In this document: one piece after another, positions 22,242-63,399 of the stretch | Numbering within the stretch: position 1 is the stretch's first letter | How the letters are laid out: each line of letters starts with the position of its first letter | DNA from: Collinsella tanakaei | GTDB lineage: Bacteria > Actinomycetota > Coriobacteriia > Coriobacteriales > Coriobacteriaceae | DNA length: 64,000 bases | Assembly (NCBI RefSeq): GCF_016902615.1 | Contig: NZ_JACJMB010000001.1 | Location: 124,001 to 188,000 of the forward strand | Direction: 5' to 3' | The notes under the pieces: model-generated | What the model saw: the letters and a program-made list of their open reading frames with translations, nothing else | The model's database searches: none | What the model was told of the DNA's origin: nothing | Made by a program: the position numbers and the translations under genes

Positions 22242-22275
22242 AAGCGTCCCCGTTTGTCAGCAAACGGGGACGCTT
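22242..22275 (-). terminator. Strong terminator of the yqeB-xdhC transcript
   Basis: A perfect 15-bp stem (22242-22256 with 22261-22275) with a TCAG/CTGA loop. On the minus strand it is followed by TTTTT, and it lies 109 bases past the stop of the XdhC-like gene. Confidence 0.88.
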
Positions 22276-31224: not shown

Positions 31225-32439
31225 CTACTCGGCGGGATAGGCGCCGTCCCAGACGACCTTGCGGTAGTTCACCGGGTCGGTGTCGCCCTCGGTCGAGAAC
31301 AGCAGGACGGAGCTCTCGGAGGTGAGGCCGATGGCCTCGCGCAGGTCGGCGTACTCATCGGACTCCATGAGGGTCGTGATGAGGCCGGCTCCCACGGCAC
31401 CGGACTCGCCGGAGATCACGCGGGGGTCGCCGGAAAGCGGGGCGCCGAGCACGCGCATGCCCTTGGCGGCCACCCAGTTGGGGCACGCCACGAAGACGGA
31501 CACGTGGTTGCGCAGGATGTCCCATCCGAGCGTGTTGGGCTCGCCGCAGGCGAGGCCGGCCATGATCGTGGGCATGTCGCCGTCCACGATGCGGGGCTCG
31601 CCGTCGCCGGCCACCGCGCCCTTGTACAGGCACGCGGCCTCGTCGGCCTCCATGACCACGAAGGTCGGCGGGTTATCGGGGAACAGGTTGGTGAAGTAGC
31701 CCACCACGGCACCGGCGAGGGAGCCGACGCCCGCCTGGACGAACACGTGGGTCGGACGCTCGACGCCCGCGGCGGCAAACTGCTCGGCCGCCTCGGAGGC
31801 CATGGTGCCGTAGCCCTCCATGATCCAGCTCGGGATCTCCTCGTAGCCGTCCCATGCGGTGTCCTGGACGATGACGCCGTTCTCGCAGGCGTCGGCCTCG
31901 GCGGCGGCCATGCGGACGCACTCGTCGTAGTTGACGTCCTCGATGGTCACCTGGGCGCCCTCGGCGGCGATGTTGTCGAAGCGGCTCTTGACCGAACCCT
32001 TGGGCATGTGGACGACGGCCTTCTGGCCGAGCTTGTTGGCGGCCCATGCCACGCCGCGGCCGTGGTTGCCGTCGGTGGCGGTGAAGAAGGTGGCCTGGCC
32101 GAAGTCGCGGGCGAGCTCCTCGCTGGTGAGGTAGTCGTAGGTCATCTCAGAGACGGGCTTGCCGGTCTTCTCGGCGATGTAGCTCGCCATGGCGAACGAT
32201 CCGCCCAGGACCTTGAAGGCGTTGAGACCGAAGCGGTAGCTCTCGTCCTTGACCGCAAGGTTCGCAAGACCAAGGTCTGCCGCCAGGCCATCGAGCTTGG
32301 CGAGCGGGGTCACCGAGTACTGCGGGAAGCTCTGGTGGAACGAGCGGGCGGCGCTGACGTGCTCGAGCGACATGATGCCCAGGTGGGCGTCATCGCTTTT
32401 AGGCATCTTGTTCGCAACCCATTTAATCTGATCGGCCAT
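31225..32439 (-). CDS. ygeX: Diaminopropionate ammonia-lyase YgeX
   Basis: 404 aa PLP enzyme; 2,3-diaminopropionate to pyruvate and two ammonia. [10 protein letters not shown] carries the PLP lysine (K76); [10 protein letters not shown] and [11 protein letters not shown] contact the cofactor phosphate. The start at 32439 (MADQIKWV) has GGAGA upstream; the open frame above it is not conserved. First gene of the ygeX-ygeY-ygeW-arcC-mocA-hydA run, downstream of a region with two operator-like sequences and divergent from a YheO-type regulator. Confidence 0.95.
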
Positions 32440-32539: not shown

Positions 32540-32556
32540 CCAAACAAAAAGTTTTG
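32540..32556 (+). promoter_or_regulatory. Operator-like site 1 of the purine locus
   Basis: CCAAACAAAAAGTTTTG, one base off the near-palindrome CCAAACAAAAAGTTTGG. It is 101 bases upstream of the ygeX start codon, in the divergent promoter region. Confidence 0.6.
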
Positions 32557-32649
32557 CTGACCTAGTTTTACCACAGGGGATATAGCTGAGTCCAGACAGA
32601 TTGTTTGGTTTCATAAACGGTTGGAATCTGCCGGTAAACGGTATATTCC

Positions 32650-32689: not shown

Positions 32690-32706
32690 CCTAACAAAAA
32701 GTTTGG
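32690..32706 (+). promoter_or_regulatory. Operator-like site 2 of the purine locus
   Basis: CCTAACAAAAAGTTTGG, again one base from the consensus. It lies between the candidate promoter and the Shine-Dalgarno of the regulator gene, a position suited to autorepression. Confidence 0.6.
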
Positions 32707-32717
32707 AAGGAGGTTAC

Positions 32718-33371
32718 ATGTCCCCAGCGCAGATTGAGTTCTATCGCCGTCTTGCCAAGGGTCTTGCCCTTCAGTTCGGCCCCAACTGCGAGATCGTCAT
32801 CCATGACTTGGAGTCCGACGATCTCGACCACTCCATCGTGGCGATCGAGAACGGACACGTGTCTGGGCGCCATCTGGGTGACGGCCCCAGCCATGTAGTC
32901 CTCGAGGCGCTCCACGACGCGCCCGACAAACTTGAGGACCGCCCGCCGTATCTCACCAAGACGTCGGACGGCAAGCTCCTGAAGTCGAGCACCATCTTCA
33001 TCCGCAACGAAGCCGGCTGGCCGTGCGGGATCTTAGCCATCAACTTCGACATCACGCTGATGACGGCGTTTTCCGGCACGCTGGCCTCGCTCATCGGCAC
33101 CGGTGATCACAACGAGCCGGAACCCATCGCCAAAAACATCGGTGACCTGCTTGACGACCTGTTCGGCGAGTGCGAGCAGATGATCGGAAAGCCTGCCGCC
33201 CTCATGACGAAGGAGGAGCGTGTGCGGGCCATCGGTTACCTCGACCAGCGCGGAGCGTTCCTGATCAGCAAGTCCAGCCAGAAGGCATGCGACTTCTTCG
33301 GGATCTCCAAGTACAGCTTCTACAGCTACCTTGACGAAGCCAAGGCCGCCTCAAACGATGATCAGAAGTAG
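32718..33371 (+). CDS. YheO/DauR-like transcriptional regulator (PAS + HTH), arm 1
   Basis: 217 aa. The N-terminal half is a YheO-type PAS domain (CEIVIHDLESDDLDHSIVAI, NGHVSGRHLGDGPS, FIRNEAGWPCGILAINFD); the C-terminal region is an HTH (RVRAIGYLDQRGAFLISKSS, DFFGISKYSFYSYLDEA). This architecture is found in DauR and other amino-acid or nitrogen-compound responsive regulators. GGAAGGAGG precedes the ATG at 32718. Divergent from ygeX, so it is the likely regulator of arm 1; the ligand is unknown. Confidence 0.88.
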   Translation: MSPAQIEFYRRLAKGLALQFGPNCEIVIHDLESDDLDHSIVAIENGHVSGRHLGDGPSHVVLEALHDAPDKLEDRPPYLTKTSDGKLLKSSTIFIRNEAGWPCGILAINFDITLMTAFSGTLASLIGTGDHNEPEPIAKNIGDLLDDLFGECEQMIGKPAALMTKEERVRAIGYLDQRGAFLISKSSQKACDFFGISKYSFYSYLDEAKAASNDDQK

Positions 33372-50121: not shown

Positions 50122-52881
50122 CTACTTGCGGCGCGAGTAGTACGTGTTCTCGAGCGGAAGCTTCGTGCGGTACTCGCCATCGAGCGCATAGTAGGCGCCC
50201 GCCACGGCCTGCGCCGTGGGGATCGTGGCGATCTCGCCGATGCCCTTGGCGCCGTAGCCCACGGGCAGAAGCTCGTCTTTCTCCACGTAGATGGCGTTGA
50301 TGTAGGGGATGTCCGTCGAGCGGAAGAGCCCGAGCGTGCCGAACTTGGCCTGCGGCACGCCGTCTTTCAGTGGGAAGTCCTCGGTCAGCGCGTAGCCCAT
50401 GCCCATGAGCACGCCCCCCTCGATCTGGCCCTGGATGGCGATGGGGTTCACGACCTTGCCGGAATCGTGCGCGGCGTGGACCTCGGTCACGCGGCCCTCG
50501 TCGTCGAGCACGACCACATGCGTGGCGTAGCCGTAGGCGACATGGCTCTTCGGGTTGGGGACGTCGGCGCCCAGCTTGTCGGTCTTCTCGAGGTACTCGT
50601 AGGAGAACTCGCGCCCCTCGAGCTTGGCGAGCGAGGTGGTCGGGTCCGCCGGGTGCACGGCGGAGCCGGGGCCCTGGTAAGGCGTGCCGTCCGCGTACTC
50701 CACGATGAAGCCGTCGCCGTGGGCGACCACGGGCTCCGTCGGCACCTCGTCGCCCGCCTCGGCGGCGAGCATGGCGTCGCGCAGCAGGAAGGCGGCGCCG
50801 CGCACGGCCTCGCCGGTGATCAGCGTCTGGCGCGAACCGGAGGTCGTGCCGGAGTCCGGCGCGTTCTCGGTCGAGCACTCGCCGTTGGCGATGTAGGCCA
50901 GCGGCAGCCCCGTCGCCTCGGCGACGTCCTGCAGAAAGACGGTGTTGCAGCCCTGACCGATGTCGGAGGTCGCCGAGTACACCACGGCGCGCCCCTCCTC
51001 CACGCGGATCTTGCAGCGGCCCGCATCGGGCAGGCCGACGCCCACGCCGGCGTTCTTCATGGCGCAGGCGATGCCGGCATGACCCGGATGGGCGTCGAAG
51101 ACGTCCTTCACGGCGAGCAGGGTCTCCTTGAGCGCCGTGGAGCAATCCGCGATCTGACCGTTGGGCAGCACCTTGCCCGGCTCGATAGCGTTGCGGTAGC
51201 GGATCTCCCACGGGCTGATGCCGACCTCCTCGGCCAGCAGGTTGATGAGCATCTCGAGGGCGAACTCGCTCTGGCACACGCCGAAGCCGCGGAATGCGCC
51301 GGCCGGCGGGTTGTTCGTGTACCAGCCGTAACCGCGGATGTCGGTGTTCTGGTAGCAGTACGGACCCACGGAGTGCGTGCAGGCACGCTCGAGAACCGGG
51401 CCGCACAGCGACGCGTAGGCGCCGGTGTCGAAGTTGATCTCGCAATCGAGGCCGGTGAAGATGCCGTTCTCGTCGCAGCCCAGCGTGAAGGTTCCCTCCA
51501 TGGCATGGCGCTTCGGATGGAAATTGATGGACTCCTGGCGCGTCATGCGGCACTTGACCGGGCGGTTCACGGCCATCGCGGCGAGCGCGGCCAGATGCTG
51601 GACGGAGACGTCCTCCTTGCCGCCGAAGCCGCCGCCCACGAGCATGGTCTCCACGACCACGCGCTCGGGCGTGGCGTCCCAGCCGAACATGTGGGCGATC
51701 TCCTTGCGGGAGTCGTAGGCGCCCTGGTCGGTCGAGCAGACCTTGACGCCGCCCTTGTACGGGAAGGCGACGGCGCACTCGGGCTCCAGAAACGCATGCT
51801 CGGTGAACGGCGTCGAGAAGCTGCGCGTCACCTTGTGCGCAGAGTTCGCGAGCGCGGTCGCCGCGTCGCCTCGCACCACATGGCGCTGCTGGCAGATGTT
51901 GTTCTCGAGCTCGACCCAGTTGCCGAACGCGAGGAACCTGTCGTGCAGCTTCGGGGCTCCCTCGGCACGGGCCTCGTCGATGCTGCGCACCGGCTCGAGC
52001 TCCTCGTAGGTGATCTTGACGAGCTTCTTGGCGCGCTCGCAGGTGACCATGTCCTCGGCAACCACGAGCGCGATGGCGTCGCCCACGCAGCGCGTGATGT
52101 CGCCCTCGGCGATCATAACGTCCCAGTCGTAGATGAGGTGGCCGACCGCGTTCACGGGAACGTCGGCCGCCGTGAGGACCGCGAGCACGCCGGGCAGGGC
52201 GCGGGCCTTGTCCGCATCGATCTTGACCACGCGTGCGCGCGGGTACTTGGAGCGCACCGCACTCGCATAGGCGAGATCGGGGAAATCGGTCTCGTCGATA
52301 TCGTCGGGATACTTGCCGTATCCGAGCACCTTGCGGCGCACGTCCACGCGGAAGGCGCGCTCGCCCACGCCGTAGCGGTCGCCGCGCTCGAGCTCGGGGT
52401 CGATCTCGGCCTCGCCGCGCAGGATGGCGGCGGCGAGCGAGATGCCCTCGATGATCTTCTTGTATCCCGTGCAGCGGCACACGTTGCCGCGGATGGCCTC
52501 TTTGATCTGGTCCTCGGTGGGGTCGGGCACGTGGTGGATCAGGCCGGCGCCCGCCATCACCATGCCGGGAATGCAGAAGCCGCACTGCACGGCGCCCACG
52601 GCGCCGAATGCATAGACGAAGGCCTCCTGCTCCTCGTGGGGCAGGCCCTCCACGGTCACGATGTCGCGGCCGGCCGCGAGCTCGGTCGTGAGCACGCAGG
52701 CCTTGATGGCGTGGTCGTCAACCAGCACGGTGCAGGTACCGCAGGCGCCCTCCGAGCATCCGTCCTTGGCGGAATGGATATGCAGATCGTCGCGCAGGTA
52801 GCGCAGAAGCGGTTTCTTCTCGGTCACCGTGCGCTCGACGCCGTTGACGGTGAAGGTGTAGCTCACCGGCTCTTTTGCCAT
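50122..52881 (-). CDS. Xanthine-dehydrogenase-like molybdenum hydroxylase with fused 2Fe-2S domain
   Basis: 919 aa. Residues 1-160 or so form the [2Fe-2S] domain (CSEGACGTC, CGFCIPG, CRCTGY); the rest is the molybdopterin subunit, with VGGGFGGKED, GAFRGFGV, SDIGQGCNTVFLQ and GYGAKGIGE carrying the active-site Glu. There is no FAD domain, so electrons must leave to a partner, plausibly the ferredoxin and YgfK encoded upstream. YqeB, YqeC and MocA in the window suggest selenium-dependent activity on xanthine or another purine (XdhD-like). ATG at 52881 chosen; a GTG nine bases earlier is possible. Confidence 0.93.
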   Translation of the reverse strand: MAKEPVSYTFTVNGVERTVTEKKPLLRYLRDDLHIHSAKDGCSEGACGTCTVLVDDHAIKACVLTTELAAGRDIVTVEGLPHEEQEAFVYAFGAVGAVQCGFCIPGMVMAGAGLIHHVPDPTEDQIKEAIRGNVCRCTGYKKIIEGISLAAAILRGEAEIDPELERGDRYGVGERAFRVDVRRKVLGYGKYPDDIDETDFPDLAYASAVRSKYPRARVVKIDADKARALPGVLAVLTAADVPVNAVGHLIYDWDVMIAEGDITRCVGDAIALVVAEDMVTCERAKKLVKITYEELEPVRSIDEARAEGAPKLHDRFLAFGNWVELENNICQQRHVVRGDAATALANSAHKVTRSFSTPFTEHAFLEPECAVAFPYKGGVKVCSTDQGAYDSRKEIAHMFGWDATPERVVVETMLVGGGFGGKEDVSVQHLAALAAMAVNRPVKCRMTRQESINFHPKRHAMEGTFTLGCDENGIFTGLDCEINFDTGAYASLCGPVLERACTHSVGPYCYQNTDIRGYGWYTNNPPAGAFRGFGVCQSEFALEMLINLLAEEVGISPWEIRYRNAIEPGKVLPNGQIADCSTALKETLLAVKDVFDAHPGHAGIACAMKNAGVGVGLPDAGRCKIRVEEGRAVVYSATSDIGQGCNTVFLQDVAEATGLPLAYIANGECSTENAPDSGTTSGSRQTLITGEAVRGAAFLLRDAMLAAEAGDEVPTEPVVAHGDGFIVEYADGTPYQGPGSAVHPADPTTSLAKLEGREFSYEYLEKTDKLGADVPNPKSHVAYGYATHVVVLDDEGRVTEVHAAHDSGKVVNPIAIQGQIEGGVLMGMGYALTEDFPLKDGVPQAKFGTLGLFRSTDIPYINAIYVEKDELLPVGYGAKGIGEIATIPTAQAVAGAYYALDGEYRTKLPLENTYYSRRK

Positions 52882-52896
52882 AGCGTCCACCCCTTT

Positions 52897-53276: not shown

Positions 53277-56276
53277 TTACTCGCAGAACAGGTACCCGTA
53301 GTCGTCGCGCACCGCGGCGATGGTGCGGCGGATGCCGTCGGGCACGCCCGAGGAGGCATCGTCGATATCGACGACGTGGACCTCGCCGGCCAGGCGCACG
53401 GAGAACGTGCCGTCGGCGAGTTTCATGAAGCCGTCGTTATCGGAGTCGAGCATGTCGTCGCCGCTCCAGAACAGCGTCAGCTTGTCCTTGTAGGGGCGGC
53501 CGGTCTCGTACGGGCAGAACACGGCGCAGTTGCCGCACTCGTTGCACATGCCGTCCACGTGGATGACCTGCTGCTTGTCCATGCCCGGCACGGCTATGGC
53601 GATGTTCGCGCGGTTCGGGCACACATCGCAGCAGACCTCGCACACGGCCCCGCAGCCGAGGCAGCGGGTATGCGTGCACGTCTCCTTGTCGCGGCAGAGA
53701 GCGCCCTTCTTGGCGACATACGGGGCGCGGTCGAGCTGCTCGTTGGCATCGACGTACTTGTTGAAGTCGACGTCCGCGATCTTGCGCGCGACCTCGGCCG
53801 CGTCGGCGATGGCCTCAACCACGGTCGCGGGGCCGCGACGGCAGTCGCCCGCCGCCCACACGCCCGCAACGCCGGTCTCGACGTCGGCCAAGCGGCCGCG
53901 GCGGTCGGTCCCGACGCCCGCACCCTCATAGAGGGAGGTGTCGATGCGCTCGCCCACCGCGCAGATCACGGTGGTGGCGGGCACGATCACCGTCTCGCCC
54001 GTGGGCTCGGGCGCGCGGCGGCCGGAAGCATCCGGCTCACCGAGGCGCATGACGTTGCAGGTCAGCCCGCCATCGGCAAGCGACACGGGAGCGAGCAGCT
54101 CCATGAACTCGACGCCGTCGGCGAGCGCGAAATCGAGCTCCTCCTCGTCGGCGGGCATCTGGGCCTTCGTGCGGCGATACACGAGGCGCACGTTTTCCAC
54201 GCCCGCGATGCGCTTGGCCGCGCGCGCGGCGTCCATGGCGGTGTTGCCGGCGCCGATGACCACGACATCCGTACCCAGATCGAGGGTCTCCGGTGCCTTC
54301 TTGGCAGCCTCGAGGAACTCGAGCACGTCCGTCTCGGCACCCTCGTCGAGACCGGCAGAGCCGGGCAGCCAGGCACCGGTCGCCACGACGACGTCGGAGA
54401 AGCCCTGCTCCTTGAGCTCGGCAACGGACTCGACGCGCACGCCGGTCTTCACCTCGGCGCCGAAGGCGCGGCACAGCTCGACGTCGGCATCGATGTCTGC
54501 GCTCTCGATACGGAACTCGGGGATGACGTGGCGCACGATGCCGCCGAGCGTGTCGCGCTCCTCGAAGATGGTGACGGGCACGCCGGCGCGCGTCAGGAAG
54601 TAGGCGCAGGCCAGGCCGGCCGGGCCGCCGCCGACAACGGCGACGTTGCGCTCGGAGGTCTTCTCGTGCGCCTTGGCGCGCAGCTGGGGCAGGACCTCGG
54701 CGAACGCCTCGCGCGCGGCGCGCAGCTTGCTCGCACGGATCTGGGCGCCTTCGGGCTCGTAGAACGCGCGCTCGCAGCTCTTGCCGCAGGGATGCGGGCA
54801 GATGACGCCGGTGATGTGCGGCAGGGCGTTGCGCTCGATGATGATGTCGAGGGCGTCGGCGAAGCGCCCCTCATCGACAGCGGCGAGGTAGGCAGGGATG
54901 TCCTGGGAGATGGGGCAGCTCGTGCGGCAGGGCGCGGTGAAGCAGTCCACGAGCGCAGGGGTGCCCGGAACCTTCGCGGAGGGCAGTTTGCGCAGCGGGT
55001 TGCGGTAGAGCGGGTTGGTGAGCGAGTCCTCCTGGATCTTCGTCACGGCATCGAGCGACACGCCCGCGAAGGGCTTGCCGTCCAGATGCGCGAACTCGCC
55101 GGCGATCTGGCTCATGCGCTCATAGCCGCCCGGCTTCAGCACGTCGGTCGCCATGGTGATCGGCCAGATGCCCGCATCGTAGAGCGAGCGGATGTTGTAG
55201 ATGGTGGCGCCGCCGGAGTAGGAGATGCGCAGGGCTCCGCCGAACTGCTCGGTGATGCGGCGCGCGACCTCGATGGTGAGCGAGAACAGCGTGCGGCCGC
55301 TCATGTACATCTCGTCGCTCGGCAGCTCGCCGCGGGTGACGTCGACCGGGAAGGTGTTCGTGAGCTTCACGCCGAAGTCCAGGCCGCGCTCGGCGGTGAG
55401 GGCCATCAGGCGCTCGAACATCGGCACGGCGTCGGCCCACTGCAGATCCTCCACGAAGTGGCGGTCGTCGAAGGCGATGTAGTCGAATCCGAGCTCGTCG
55501 AGGCGGGCGCGGGCGAAGTCGTAGCCGAGCAGCGTCGGGTTGCACTTGATGTAGGTGTTCAGATTCTTCTCGCAGATGAGGTAGGTCGCGATGCGCTCGA
55601 TCTCATCGGGCGGGCAGCCGTGCAGCGTGGACTCGGTGATGGAGTTCGACACGCGCGCCGGGATGGAATCGATGAACGCGGCGTCCACGTGCTCGAAGCG
55701 GTCGAGGTTCTCGAGCGCCCAGGCGCGGCACTCGGCCCAGACCTCGGAGCCGGAGGCGTCCTTCATGCCCTCGATGTAGGCATCGACCTTCGGGCTCTTG
55801 ATGCCCTCGAGGTCGTAGCCCACGCTCATGTTGAACACGAAGCCGTCAGGCGAGCCAAGCCCGTACTCGCGGGCGATCAGGTGGCAGGCGAACCAGGCCT
55901 TCACGTACTCGGCGTATGCCTGCGGAACCTCGAGCTCGGTGGACCACTCGCAGTTGTAGCACTCGTCGGCCGCGGTGATGCAGGGCTTGTTCACGCAGGC
56001 GGAGAGCTCGGCGCCGTCCATCACCTGGACGGTCTTGAGCTCGAAGAAGCGCGAGCCGGCCACGTAGGCGGCGATGATGTTCTGCGCGAGCTGGGTGTTC
56101 GGGCCGGCGGCGGGGCCGAACGGGGTCTCGACCTTCTCGTCGAAGATCGGCAGCGCGCCCGCCGGGTCGGCGTGCACGATCTTGCGGACACCGAAGATGG
56201 AGCCGGTCTGCTCGTGCTCGGTCATGACCCAGTTCATCAGGCTGGCAAACGGGATGGGCCTCATGATGTCGCTCAT
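53277..56276 (-). CDS. ygfK: YgfK-type iron-sulfur flavoprotein
   Basis: 999 aa. The N-terminal 450 residues are dihydroorotate-dehydrogenase-like (GPAAGPNTQLAQNIIAAY, TLHGCPPDEIE, LRISYSGGATIYNIRSLY). Then comes a GltD-like module with iron-sulfur cysteines (CRTSCPISQDIPAY, CPHPCGKSCE), FAD motif VAVVGGGPAGLACAYFL, NAD motif VVVIGAGNTAMDAARA and VWAAGDCRRGPATVVEAI, and a C-terminal cluster region (CLGCGAVCEVCCDVCPNRAN, CNECGNCAVFCPYE). Once annotated as a selenate reductase subunit; in purine loci it is thought to transfer electrons for a reductive step. Substrate not proven. Confidence 0.93.
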   Translation of the reverse strand: MSDIMRPIPFASLMNWVMTEHEQTGSIFGVRKIVHADPAGALPIFDEKVETPFGPAAGPNTQLAQNIIAAYVAGSRFFELKTVQVMDGAELSACVNKPCITAADECYNCEWSTELEVPQAYAEYVKAWFACHLIAREYGLGSPDGFVFNMSVGYDLEGIKSPKVDAYIEGMKDASGSEVWAECRAWALENLDRFEHVDAAFIDSIPARVSNSITESTLHGCPPDEIERIATYLICEKNLNTYIKCNPTLLGYDFARARLDELGFDYIAFDDRHFVEDLQWADAVPMFERLMALTAERGLDFGVKLTNTFPVDVTRGELPSDEMYMSGRTLFSLTIEVARRITEQFGGALRISYSGGATIYNIRSLYDAGIWPITMATDVLKPGGYERMSQIAGEFAHLDGKPFAGVSLDAVTKIQEDSLTNPLYRNPLRKLPSAKVPGTPALVDCFTAPCRTSCPISQDIPAYLAAVDEGRFADALDIIIERNALPHITGVICPHPCGKSCERAFYEPEGAQIRASKLRAAREAFAEVLPQLRAKAHEKTSERNVAVVGGGPAGLACAYFLTRAGVPVTIFEERDTLGGIVRHVIPEFRIESADIDADVELCRAFGAEVKTGVRVESVAELKEQGFSDVVVATGAWLPGSAGLDEGAETDVLEFLEAAKKAPETLDLGTDVVVIGAGNTAMDAARAAKRIAGVENVRLVYRRTKAQMPADEEELDFALADGVEFMELLAPVSLADGGLTCNVMRLGEPDASGRRAPEPTGETVIVPATTVICAVGERIDTSLYEGAGVGTDRRGRLADVETGVAGVWAAGDCRRGPATVVEAIADAAEVARKIADVDFNKYVDANEQLDRAPYVAKKGALCRDKETCTHTRCLGCGAVCEVCCDVCPNRANIAIAVPGMDKQQVIHVDGMCNECGNCAVFCPYETGRPYKDKLTLFWSGDDMLDSDNDGFMKLADGTFSVRLAGEVHVVDIDDASSGVPDGIRRTIAAVRDDYGYLFCE

Positions 56277-56357: not shown

Positions 56358-57710
56358 TTAGTAGGTGCGCTCGTTCAGGACGCCCCAGAGCTTCTTGGAC
56401 TGCTCCATCGTCCAGGCGTTGATGCGCTCCTCGTCGAAGGCGACGAACTCGCGATCCTTGTACAGGACGCGGCCGTTCACGATCGTCGTGCGGCAGTTCT
56501 TGCCCATCATGCCGAACAGCATGTGGCCGTCGACGTTCTCCTCTGAGAAGGGCGTGAACTTGTTGTAATCCATCACGATGACGTCGGCGGCGGCACCGGG
56601 CGCCAGCACGCCGATCTTGCGGCCGAAGTACATGCTCGCCATCTCGGGGTTGTTCTTGAACAGCATCGTCATGCCCTCGACCCAGCCGACATTCGGCATG
56701 GCGGCGTTATGCCGCTGGATGGTGAGGAAGACCTTCAGGCTCTCGAGCATGTCGTGCGTGTAGGCGTCGGTACCCATGTGCACCGGGATGCCGCGCCGGA
56801 AGAACTCGAGCACCGGCGCGCAACCCACGGCGTTGCCCATGTTGGACTCGGGGTTGTTGACGATATGGGTGCCGGTCTCCTTGATGATGTCCATCTCGGC
56901 GGGCGTCACGTGGATGCAGTGGCCGAGCATCGTGCGGGGGCCCAGCAGCCCGTGCTGGAGCAGCCGCTCCACCGGCGGGATGCCGCCGCGGTTCTCGCGG
57001 GAATCCCACACGTCGTTCATGCCCTCGCACACATGGATGTGGAAGCCGGTGAGCCCGTCGTTGGCCTCGGCCATCATGTCCATGGTCTCGTCGGAAAGCG
57101 TGAAGGTGGCATGGCCGCCGAACATGGCGGCGATCATGGAGTTGCCGTCCGCCTGCGCGGCGGCCGCCCAGCGGGCGAACTCGGCGTTCTCGGCGATGGC
57201 CTGGTCGCGCTTCTCCTCCCCACGGCGGTCGGAGGTCTCGTAGCACAGGCACGCGCGGATGCCGGTCTCCTCGCAGACGTCCTTGATGGCGAACAGGCTG
57301 CCCGGAATCTCACAGAAGCTCGCATGGTGATCGAAGATCGTGGTCACGCCGTCGCGCAGGCTGTCGAGCACCGTCGCGTAGGCCGAGGCGCGCGTGCCGT
57401 CGAGCGTGAGGTTGTCATCGATCTTCCACCACTGCTGCTCGAGGTTCTCGAGAAAGTTCGTGGGATTGCAGCCCTTGATGGACAGGCCGCGGGCAAGGCC
57501 GGAGTAGATGTGGGTGTGGCAGTTCACCAGACCCGGCATGATGATGCCGCCGTGGGCGTCGACGTACTCCGAGCCGGGGTTCGCGGCGACGATCTCGTCC
57601 TCGGCGCCCACCTGGACGATCGTGTCGCCATCGATGAGCACCGCACCGCGCTCCAGATAGGGCATCTCCGCGTCGCGTGTGACGACCGAGCCGTTACCAA
57701 CGATGAGCAT
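56358..57710 (-). CDS. ssnA: Putative aminohydrolase SsnA
   Basis: 450 aa, amidohydrolase superfamily. Metal ligands are seen in GLVNCHTHIYSGLARG, GFHIHVCEG, LGHCIHVTPAEMD and MGTDAYTHD. SsnA occurs in purine loci with YgfK and YgeW/X/Y and is proposed to deaminate or open a purine-derived ring; the substrate is inferred. AGAGGAG precedes the ATG. Same transcript as the permease and ygfK. Confidence 0.93.
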   Translation of the reverse strand: MLIVGNGSVVTRDAEMPYLERGAVLIDGDTIVQVGAEDEIVAANPGSEYVDAHGGIIMPGLVNCHTHIYSGLARGLSIKGCNPTNFLENLEQQWWKIDDNLTLDGTRASAYATVLDSLRDGVTTIFDHHASFCEIPGSLFAIKDVCEETGIRACLCYETSDRRGEEKRDQAIAENAEFARWAAAAQADGNSMIAAMFGGHATFTLSDETMDMMAEANDGLTGFHIHVCEGMNDVWDSRENRGGIPPVERLLQHGLLGPRTMLGHCIHVTPAEMDIIKETGTHIVNNPESNMGNAVGCAPVLEFFRRGIPVHMGTDAYTHDMLESLKVFLTIQRHNAAMPNVGWVEGMTMLFKNNPEMASMYFGRKIGVLAPGAAADVIVMDYNKFTPFSEENVDGHMLFGMMGKNCRTTIVNGRVLYKDREFVAFDEERINAWTMEQSKKLWGVLNERTY

Positions 57711-57881: not shown

Positions 57882-59288
57882 CTACTTCTTGTGATCGGGA
57901 AGGACGGTGCCGACGGCAGCCTCCTTCGCGGCGTCCACGTACGCGTCCACCGGCGGGGTGGGCGGCAGGATGAGGTTCAAGATGATGGCCATGATGGCGC
58001 ACGGGGTGATGGCGTTGGAACCGATGACCGTCGTGACCCAGCTGGGCATGCCCTCGCCGGCAAGGCAGCCGGAGGCCATCCAGATGCCGAGGCCGAACAC
58101 GACCGAGGTGCCCACGATGGTGGCCACGCGCTGGGTCAGGCCCTCCTTGGTGAACATGCGGATGCCGTTCATGGTGATGGTACCGAACACGCCGACGGTG
58201 GCGCCGCCGATAACCGGCTGCGGGATGGCGGTCAGCAGGGCGGAGAGCTGCGGGAAGAGGCCGGCGAGCGCGAACACGGCCGCCACGATGGCGAACACCC
58301 ACTTGTTGATGACCTTGTTCGAGGCGATGATGCCGACGTTCTGGCCAAGGGCGCTCGTGGGCAGGCCGCCCAGGAAGGCGGAGATGATGCTCGTCAGGCC
58401 CTGGGAGACGATGGCGCCGGACAGCTCGCGCTCCTCGGGCATGCGGTCGATGGAGCCGAGGCAGGCAGCCGAGACGTCACCGATGACCTGGATGGCGACC
58501 ATGGGGTACACCACGGCAAGCGTGATGCAGACCTCGGGCTGGAACTCGATGGGATAGGGCATGAACTTGGGCAGGGCGAAGATGCCGGCCGTGCCCACGC
58601 TCGAGAAGTCGAGCATGCCGAACGGCGCGGACACGATGATGCCCACGATCATGCCGAAGAACACACTGCCGAGCTTGAGCGTGCCCTTGGTGAAGTTGGA
58701 CAGGAAGAACACGACGGCAAAGGTGATGAGCGCGACGATCCAGCTCTGCGGGGTGCCCCAGATGGGCGTGCCCTCGCCGCCGGCCATGTACTTCACGGCC
58801 GTCGGATACAGCGACACGCCGATCGTGAAGATGACCGTACCGGTCACGACGGGTGGGAACAGGTTTTTCAGCTTGCTGTAGAACAGGCCGAACAGAATCG
58901 CCGCGATACCGCCGACGATCTCGCCGCCGAGCAGCGTGCCGAACGAGAAGTCCGCCCCCATAGCCTGCAGCGCGGGAAGGAAGGCGAACGAGACGCCCAT
59001 GACGATCGGCAGGCCGCCGCCGATGCGGCGGAACGGCGCGAATGCCTGCAGCGCAGTGTCGATGGCGGACAGGATCAGGGCGACCTGGATGATATCGGTG
59101 CGCTGCTGGGCGTCCCAACCGTAGACCGATGCAATGATGATCGCCGGGGTGATGATGCCGGCGAACGATGCGAGCACATGCTGCAGGGCGCACGGGATCA
59201 TGTCCTGGATGGGAGGCATGCCTCCTCTGGTGAATAGATAGTCGTGCGCGCTGCCGGTGCGCGCCGCCGTTGTCGTCTTCTGGGTCAT
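57882..59288 (-). CDS. NCS2-family urate/xanthine permease (UacT/YgfU-like)
   Basis: 468 aa, about 12-14 membrane segments of the nucleobase:cation symporter-2 family. GGMPPIQDMIPCALQHVLAS at the start, GVSFAFLPALQAMGA, and GLPTSALGQNVGIIASNKV with the substrate-binding QNxG motif. In YgfU/UacT homologues this family carries uric acid. The ATG at 59288 has GGGAGGG upstream. First gene of arm 2 (permease-ssnA-ygfK-ferredoxin-hydroxylase). A promoter, a 31-bp palindrome and an operator-like site lie upstream. Confidence 0.92.
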   Translation of the reverse strand: MTQKTTTAARTGSAHDYLFTRGGMPPIQDMIPCALQHVLASFAGIITPAIIIASVYGWDAQQRTDIIQVALILSAIDTALQAFAPFRRIGGGLPIVMGVSFAFLPALQAMGADFSFGTLLGGEIVGGIAAILFGLFYSKLKNLFPPVVTGTVIFTIGVSLYPTAVKYMAGGEGTPIWGTPQSWIVALITFAVVFFLSNFTKGTLKLGSVFFGMIVGIIVSAPFGMLDFSSVGTAGIFALPKFMPYPIEFQPEVCITLAVVYPMVAIQVIGDVSAACLGSIDRMPEERELSGAIVSQGLTSIISAFLGGLPTSALGQNVGIIASNKVINKWVFAIVAAVFALAGLFPQLSALLTAIPQPVIGGATVGVFGTITMNGIRMFTKEGLTQRVATIVGTSVVFGLGIWMASGCLAGEGMPSWVTTVIGSNAITPCAIMAIILNLILPPTPPVDAYVDAAKEAAVGTVLPDHKK

Positions 59289-59441
59289 AAGTGAGTTCCC
59301 TCCCGTTTTGTTTCGCGCCCGCAACGCCCGAAGCTTCAGCAGACGCGACGCCTCCCGGCCTCCGGGAGACACCTTGCCTTTCATATCGGATACGGGTTTC
59401 CCACCGGCCTCACGCGATGAGGTAACGCCGATGCGAACAAC

Positions 59442-59472
59442 CAAACATTCAGTTAGGCTAACTGAATGTTTG
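59442..59472 (-). promoter_or_regulatory. 31-bp palindromic operator at the permease transcription start
   Basis: Perfect 15-bp arms around one central base; the core is GTTAGGCTAAC and the outer arm AAACATTCA. It begins 8 bases downstream of the candidate -10, so it covers the expected transcription start. AT-rich arms without a T-run argue for a repressor site rather than a terminator. Confidence 0.7.
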
Positions 59473-59479
59473 TATTACT

Positions 59480-59507
59480 GTATAACCCTCCCAACTCCCC
59501 CGTTCAA
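59480..59507 (-). promoter_or_regulatory. Candidate promoter of purine arm 2
   Basis: On the minus strand TTGAAC (59502-59507) and TTATAC (59480-59485), 16 bases apart. The palindrome follows immediately. Confidence 0.55.
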
Positions 59508-59571
59508 TGAAAGGAGGGAAAACGTCGGCGAATGGTGCTTTAGATACCGTTCGCCGATGGGCCGAGGGTGA

Positions 59572-59588
59572 CCAAACTTTTTGTTTGG
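59572..59588 (-). promoter_or_regulatory. Operator-like site 3 of the purine locus
   Basis: Minus strand CCAAACAAAAAGTTTGG, the perfect form of the sites near ygeX. Flanking bases extend the dyad (GGGTGG…TCACCC), so an RNA hairpin at the end of the lipoprotein transcript is also possible. It is about 100 bases upstream of the candidate transcription start. Confidence 0.6.
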
Positions 59589-62526: not shown

Positions 62527-62606
62527 AGATAAAAAATTTTTATCTAGTAGGAAGAATATTTGTCTAGCAGGGGCTTTTCTCTACGTGATAAAAATTTTTT
62601 GTTATC
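62527..62606. promoter_or_regulatory. Two AT-rich palindromes and a direct repeat
   Basis: AGATAAAAAATTTTTATCT (62527-62545) and GATAAAAATTTTTTGTTATC (62587-62606) share GATAAAAA…TTATC ends. Between them TATCTAGTAGG (62541) and TGTCTAGCAGG (62561) repeat at a 20-bp spacing. Likely operators for a dimeric regulator. Confidence 0.55.
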
Positions 62607-62682
62607 GTGCCGCTTGCCGCTCAAAACCGACCGCTTGCAGCCGCTCCGCGGTTGCCTTTATGCTGACGGCACTCGAAAATAG

Positions 62683-62713
62683 GAGAAACTCTTATCAGAG
62701 AGAAACTCTTATC
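62683..62713 (+). repeat. Direct repeat at the start of the regulator 2 leader
   Basis: GAGAAACTCTTATC occurs at 62683-62696 and again at 62700-62713, a 17-bp period. It ends 17 bases before the start codon, suited to autoregulation. Confidence 0.6.
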
Positions 62714-62730: not shown

Positions 62731-63399
62731 ATGAACAAGACGGTCGAGAGCTATCTGCCCTTCTTTAACTTCCTGTGCACCATTATCGGTGGCAACACCG
62801 AGGTCGTCCTACACGATTTCACCGACCTCTCGCACTCCGTCGTCGCCATCCGCAACGGGCACATCTCCGGGCGTCACGTGGGCGCGCCCGCCACCGACTT
62901 CGCGCTCAAGATGGTCCACAGCGACATTCCGCAGGATCAGGACTACACCGAGCTCTACCTCTCGCACAGCGCCACGGGCAAACCGCTGCGCTCCGCGAGC
63001 ATGTTCATCCGTGAGAACGGTACGCTGGTCGGCATGCTATGCGTCAACACCGACACGTCGCTGATCGTCCAGCTGAAGTCGCTGACCGAGGCCATCGCCG
63101 AAACGCTGCCGCCCGGCGTGTCGGGCGACGGCGCGGTCGAGGGCCATGCGAACGCCGCGATCGGCGAGCACCTCACCGCCTCGGTCGACGAGCTCGTGGC
63201 CAAGCGCGTGGGCGAGTTCGCCGCGAGCCGCGGAAAGGCGGTGCCCGTCCTCTCGGTCGCCGAGCGCCTGGAACTCATCGGCGCGCTCGAGGGAGAAGGC
63301 GTCTTTCTGCTCAAGGGCGCAGTCGCCGTCGTCGCCCAGTCCCTCGACATCTCGGAGCCGAGCGTGTACCGCTACCTTCAGAAGGTCCGGCGACGCTAG
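62731..63399 (+). CDS. YheO/DauR-like transcriptional regulator (PAS + HTH), arm 2
   Basis: 222 aa, same architecture as the arm 1 regulator: PAS-like half (EVVLHDFTDLSHSVVAIRNG, HISGRHVGAPATDF, FIRENGTLVGMLCVNTD) and C-terminal HTH (ERLELIGALEGEGVFLLKGA, LDISEPSVYRYLQKVRR). Linker residues differ greatly, so it is a distant paralogue. GGGAGG precedes the ATG. It is divergent from the truncated DUF3100 permease and sits next to the decayed dehydrogenase genes. Confidence 0.88.
   Translation: MNKTVESYLPFFNFLCTIIGGNTEVVLHDFTDLSHSVVAIRNGHISGRHVGAPATDFALKMVHSDIPQDQDYTELYLSHSATGKPLRSASMFIRENGTLVGMLCVNTDTSLIVQLKSLTEAIAETLPPGVSGDGAVEGHANAAIGEHLTASVDELVAKRVGEFAASRGKAVPVLSVAERLELIGALEGEGVFLLKGAVAVVAQSLDISEPSVYRYLQKVRRR

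Follow-up and report, generated by a model that had tools for sequence, protein, structure and literature searches.

The window analyzed here, a 64,000-nucleotide (64-kb) stretch of the Collinsella tanakaei genome, contains two operons of purine genes on its minus strand. The first is led by a gene for an NCS2 permease of the xanthine/uric acid type (57882-59288; PF00860, 2e-66), which is pbuX-like but scores under the cut-off of that model. It is followed by ssnA (aminohydrolase; 56358-57710; NF005540, 613 bits compared to a cut-off of 444), ygfK (reductase; 53277-56276; TIGR03315, 1283 bits compared to 835), a ferredoxin-like ORF, and an xdhD-like gene of the selenium-dependent xanthine dehydrogenase type (50122-52890; TIGR03311, 1157 bits compared to 830). 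The second operon begins with ygeX, which encodes diaminopropionate ammonia-lyase (31225-32439; TIGR03528, 618 bits compared to 532) and is accompanied by ygeY and ygeW. The reductive uric-acid pathway of gut bacteria includes XdhD, YgfK, SsnA, HyuA, YgeW, YgeY, and YgeX (PMC12507026), and, as judged from sequence, the permease and ygeX operons together amount to most of this pathway as described for E. coli (PMC12507026). No regulator of the pathway in Collinsella was named in the literature searched.

Divergent from ygeX on the plus strand lies regA (32718-33371), which we propose encodes the owner of the operators described below. RegA is ≈217 amino acids long, the size expected for YheO-like regulators, and its PAS_6 (PF08348, 1.5e-36) and HTH_22 (PF13309, 5e-15) domains both score above curated cut-offs. 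A paralogous PAS_6/HTH_22 protein, RegB, is ≈35% identical to RegA and is encoded at 62731-63399 on the plus strand, 3.4 kb from the palindrome that is the subject of this analysis. Thus, both regulators checked near the two operons belong to the little-studied YheO-like family. The region upstream of regB (62528-62609 and 62681-62712) carries different repeats, namely AT-rich inverted ones of the form GATAA...TTATC together with the direct repeat AGAAACTCTTATC; these GATAA-type repeats are probably RegB's own operators.

Upstream of the permease gene, positions 59442-59472 form a perfect 31-bp palindrome whose 15-bp arms flank a single base (CAAACATTCAGTTAG-G-CTAACTGAATGTTTG), exactly as a preliminary description of this DNA had reported. 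In 64 kb of the same composition, the chance expectation is ≈2e-4 for the palindrome's own geometry and ≈2e-3 for loops of 0-11, and 100 first-order Markov simulations reached arms of at most 13, compared to 15 in the palindrome. Even allowing 3 mismatches, the 2.45-Mb genome contains only this one copy. Long inverted repeats at 22242 and 3507 of the window are GC-rich and terminator-like. Tested as an intrinsic terminator (GC-rich stem plus T-run), the palindrome did not qualify; there is no T-run beside it on either strand, the terminator scan lists none there, and the palindrome region has no Rfam match at gathering score.

A minus-strand promoter, plausibly that of the permease operon as judged from its hexamers, reads into the palindrome, with TTGAAC (59507-59502) and TTATAC (59485-59480) separated by a 16-bp spacer. 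This promoter was not listed by a strict sigma-70 consensus scan. Two other Collinsella genomes nevertheless conserve both hexamers and their placement with respect to the palindrome (TTGAAT-16-TTATAC in one, TTGTAA-17-TATAAG in the other). The hexamers and spacer agree with the preliminary description, but the gap between the -10 and the palindrome is 7 bases, not 8. The usual spacing from the -10 places the predicted +1 at ≈59473, and the predicted 5' UTR extends ≈185 bases from there to the permease ATG at 59288. Part of this 5' UTR (59289-59350; TGAAGCTWCGGGYGYTGCRG), 3' of a variable hairpin, is conserved in three species and has no Rfam match. The earlier suggestion that a purine operon begins here with an operator is supported. 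The contrary case named with that suggestion, a terminator between unrelated genes, is inconsistent with the absence of a T-run and with the location of the element, which lies at a promoter within a cluster of purine genes.

The palindrome is composed of two copies of CCWAAC-N5-GTTWGG that share base 59457 and lie 16 bp apart from center to center. Copy 1 (CCAAACATTCAGTTAGG; 59441-59457) reads CCAAAC-ATTCA-GTTAGG, which matches this pattern exactly and has the third-best matrix (PWM) score in the window. Copy 2 (GCTAACTGAATGTTTGT; 59457-59473) reads GCTAAC-TGAAT-GTTTGT, with two outer-base mismatches, and is the sixth-best match in the window at 15.2 bits. Both copies have the AAC/GTT half-sites, 5-bp spacer, and location at a purine-pathway promoter that define this set of sites. 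The palindrome had been described as different from a CCAAAC motif and as implying a second, TetR- or MarR-like regulator. Instead, it consists of two overlapping copies of that same motif, and we rejected a second independent motif since each half fits the CCWAAC matrix.

Further copies of the motif occur at both purine promoters. A single upstream operator (CCAAACTTTTTGTTTGG; 59572-59588), which matches both the motif and the PWM, is centered at ≈-107 of the permease promoter and is kept in genome G016 and lost in G022. The second operator region, between ygeX and regA, contains motif matches directly 5' of the regA RBS (CCTAACAAAAAGTTTGG; 32690-32706), over the ygeX -35 region (CCAGACAGATTGTTTGG; 32592-32608), and directly past the ygeX -10 at ≈+3 to +19 (CCAAACAAAAAGTTTTG; 32540-32556). 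The ygeX promoter has a conserved extended -10 of the TGTGRTAAAAC type, from which the last of these operators is 8 bases away. At the permease promoter, the palindrome operators start 7 bases past the -10 and span ≈+1 to +33 of the predicted transcript, such that the operator start lies 7-8 bases past the -10 at both promoters.

Genome-wide, the only exact CCWAAC-N5-GTTWGG sites are those at 59441, 59572, and 32690, all in the two purine intergenic regions. There are four one-mismatch sites, two in a purine intergenic region (32540 and 32592) and two outside these regions, on contigs C24 and C46, and the reversed-pattern control gave 3 matches per strand genome-wide. Scored with a 17-bp matrix, the six proposed sites were the top six in the 64 kb, the lowest of them at 15.2 bits and the next-ranked site at 9.6; the matrix was trained on sites of this and related genomes, including four of the six proposed sites and excluding both palindrome copies, so that the ranks of those four are partly by construction.

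Among 400 genomes of the class, the exact double site was found only in G000, G016, and G022, each time upstream of the permease gene. In G016, both arms are altered together (ATTCA/TGAAT to AATCA/TGATT). The changes in G022 fall within the N5 spacers and leave the AAC/GTT half-sites intact. With up to 2 mismatches allowed, three genomes from another family add four places where a double site looks real or possible: G301 has one ahead of ygeY and one ahead of the gene for a 65% identical permease (2 mismatches), G150 has one ahead of ygeX (2 mismatches), and G142 has a candidate. Each of these three genomes encodes RegA and no second relative at E <= 1e-10. Two bacterial families thereby have double sites ahead of purine genes. 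The double site of the G301 permease gene fits as two 17-mers and not as a 31-bp palindrome, which is more in keeping with a pair of protein sites than with an RNA hairpin. Other matches with up to 2 mismatches (G009, G051, G321, and G401) adjoin no tested purine gene. The matches in G144, G339, G366, and G261 (loci L156-L159 and L164) share a conserved sequence, CAAACTGACTGGTAGTCAAAC, which recurs in another Coriobacteriia family and is unrelated to the operator. We also considered whether double sites in Oscillospirales keep to a spacing of 16 bp; support was weak, as 17 bp is commoner there.

We also compared regA orthologues at 80 loci in Coriobacteriia and Oscillospirales. Ahead of regA, the 17-mer keeps to recurring positions in Collinsella and at most Atopobiaceae-type loci, and the regA loci, each covered for up to 20 kb, contain almost no further matches. 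Overall, most of the Coriobacteriia examined have such sites ahead of their regA orthologues. In Oscillospirales, the site is richer in AT and weaker. Of 45 Collinsella genomes, 31 encode RegA, and 29 of these contain the motif, compared to none of the 14 without RegA (Fisher, 7e-10); this test is not independent because most sites adjoin regA and the genomes share ancestry. G023 and G036 encode RegA and have no site by the CCWAAC pattern. Since the sites are mostly linked to regA, we rejected this co-occurrence as proof of RegA binding and treat it as support. From proximity and co-occurrence, we infer that CCWAAC-N5-GTTWGG is the motif bound by RegA. In the literature searched (YheO, DauR), no published operator was found for a purine-linked YheO-like member.

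In most other Collinsella examined, permease-ssnA has a different promoter without a CCWAAC site and a RegB-type gene as divergent neighbor, at least in G032 and G042; the products of these neighbor genes are 45-47% identical to RegB. The absence of the CCWAAC site from these permease loci limits the double site to one small clade of Collinsella. The different promoter beside a RegB-type gene suggests that control of the permease-ssnA operon may have moved between two YheO-type regulators. At loci L092, L093, L095, L096, L100, and L114, where permease-ssnA is divergent from a RegB-type gene, the promoter is unrelated (AAAAAATTATTATTGA...).

We consider it probable that the palindrome is a double operator for RegA, in which two overlapping sites at ≈+1 to +33 would mediate repression of permease-ssnA-ygfK-xdhD until a purine-pathway signal appears. 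Because the site centers are 16 bp (≈1.5 helical turns) apart, adjacent RegA dimers, one per 17-bp site, could occupy opposite sides of the double helix. RegA bound there would block initiation at the permease promoter, and a purine-pathway signal would release it. RegA would also act at single sites at the divergent ygeX operon and at its own gene, and control of the permease and ygeX operons by the same regulator would make both halves of the reductive uric-acid pathway respond together. Operators past the -10 of both promoters and over the ygeX -35 suggest repression by blocked initiation, and the operator position at +1 likewise suggests repression, short of proof; negative control by RegA is thus the sign that we favor, with some reserve. 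From the gene content, our guess is that the inducer is a purine of the pathway or 2,3-diaminopropionate.

Several other explanations of the palindrome were weighed against a RegA double operator. An operator of a second, unrelated regulator of the TetR or MarR type, as proposed in the preliminary description, would account for a length of 31 bp that exceeds one 17-bp site and for a perfect overall symmetry that two independent sites do not need and that G016 keeps through paired changes. This explanation is quite unlikely, given that both halves fit the CCWAAC-N5-GTTWGG matrix, that other strong copies stand at the other purine promoter, and that the G301 permease gene has a double site that reads as two 17-mers without a 31-bp palindrome. 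Binding by RegB, alone or in common with RegA, is suggested by its shared domains, its nearness to the palindrome, and the RegB-type genes that are divergent neighbors of the permease gene in other Collinsella. However, the region upstream of regB lacks a CCWAAC site and has GATAA-type repeats instead, no CCWAAC sites are present at permease promoters adjoining RegB-type genes, and G301, G150, and G142 carry double sites with RegA as the only relative at the E-value threshold given above; we therefore regard a role of RegB at the palindrome as unlikely.

Another possibility is that the palindrome acts in the RNA, as a hairpin near the transcript's 5' end that serves as a stability element or attenuator, and its predicted RNA fold (-16.9 kcal/mol, z -6.5; -19.3 kcal/mol, z -8.2 in G016) agrees with this. 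Yet in G022 two arm positions are unpaired (-9.2 kcal/mol) while the half-sites remain intact, the G301 permease double site is not palindromic, and the single 17-mers at 59572-59588, upstream of the promoter, and at the ygeX -35 fall outside the RNA, all of which makes a hairpin function very unlikely. An RNA leader or riboswitch was similarly rejected, with no Rfam support and a hairpin broken in G022. The palindrome also lies downstream of a same-strand gene for a BMP-lipoprotein, whose terminator it might be; given that neither strand has a T-run, that the terminator scan was negative, and that the arms are AT-rich and follow a conserved promoter, this last explanation is scarcely credible.

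Beyond this locus, and more tentatively, RegA may be dedicated to the control of anaerobic uric-acid degradation, may be widespread in this role among gut Coriobacteriia and some Oscillospirales, and may use half-overlapping double operators. Within Collinsella, permease-ssnA would then have been switched between regulators, with RegA in the ihumii/An791 clade and a RegB-type protein elsewhere; we hold this wider proposal with slightly more doubt than confidence. If the RegA double operator is real, a single regulator-operator pair that can be read from the sequence makes it predictable when and where uric-acid genes are on, and a YheO-type protein gains a concrete DNA target.

A second element is shared by the two purine promoters, which both have RARCGGT pairs at ≈-52 to -84. 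At the permease promoter, the pair is an inverted dyad, TCGGCGAATGGT-N9-ACCGTTCGCCGA (59525-59557; ≈-52 to -84), with paired changes in G016 and G022. At ygeX, it is a direct repeat, RARCGGT-N14-RARCGGT (32615-32642; ≈-55 to -82), with a 21-bp period. The direct-repeat pattern has 11 exact matches in the genome, several of them intergenic and adjoining sugar-regulator, ABC, PTS, or arginine-deiminase-like genes, as named by eye from translated ORFs. At least two matches (L171 and L179) look like coding sequence, and the pattern does not exceed the control in frequency when one mismatch is allowed. Besides the two purine promoters, RARCGGT repeats, often direct and with a 21-bp period, stand upstream of several catabolic genes in Collinsella (L173, L174, L176, L177, and L178). 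A LytTR-type or other global regulator may bind these repeats, and the genome encodes six LytTR matches. The idea of two regulators on one purine operon thus remains plausible as a lead, not a result, for these repeats, whose motif recurs near other catabolic genes, and fails at the palindrome, where it had been placed.

LytTR sites have a 21-bp period. The RARCGGT element resembles them in position and in spacing at ygeX, whereas the permease pair is inverted and not direct; by this analogy, assignment of the element to LytTR is a lead only. Among published direct-repeat LytTR sites, those of AgrA are centered at ≈-60 (PMC4227749).

DauR of Pseudomonas, a YheO-like regulator, acts on D-arginine catabolism. 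Another YheO-like PAS_6/HTH_22 regulator (PF08348 + PF13309), Cj1387c of Campylobacter jejuni, has the same domains as RegA and concerns flagella (PMC4519771). The same or related enzymes and permeases are under other regulator families elsewhere, none of them YheO-like: a Crp site lies in the E. coli ygeV-ygeW region (PMC12507026), Clostridioides difficile pbuX is under DioR/sigma-54 control (PMC11448449), and B. subtilis PucR is connected with control of uric-acid or purine genes by the title of a work cited in PMC12507026.

The double operator is itself a known kind of element in a new instance. QacR-type TetR sites are double operators bound by two dimers. As in those sites, the two overlapping dyads of the palindrome would set dimers on different faces of the DNA, but the protein family is another one, and the spacing in the palindrome is 16 bp with one shared base.
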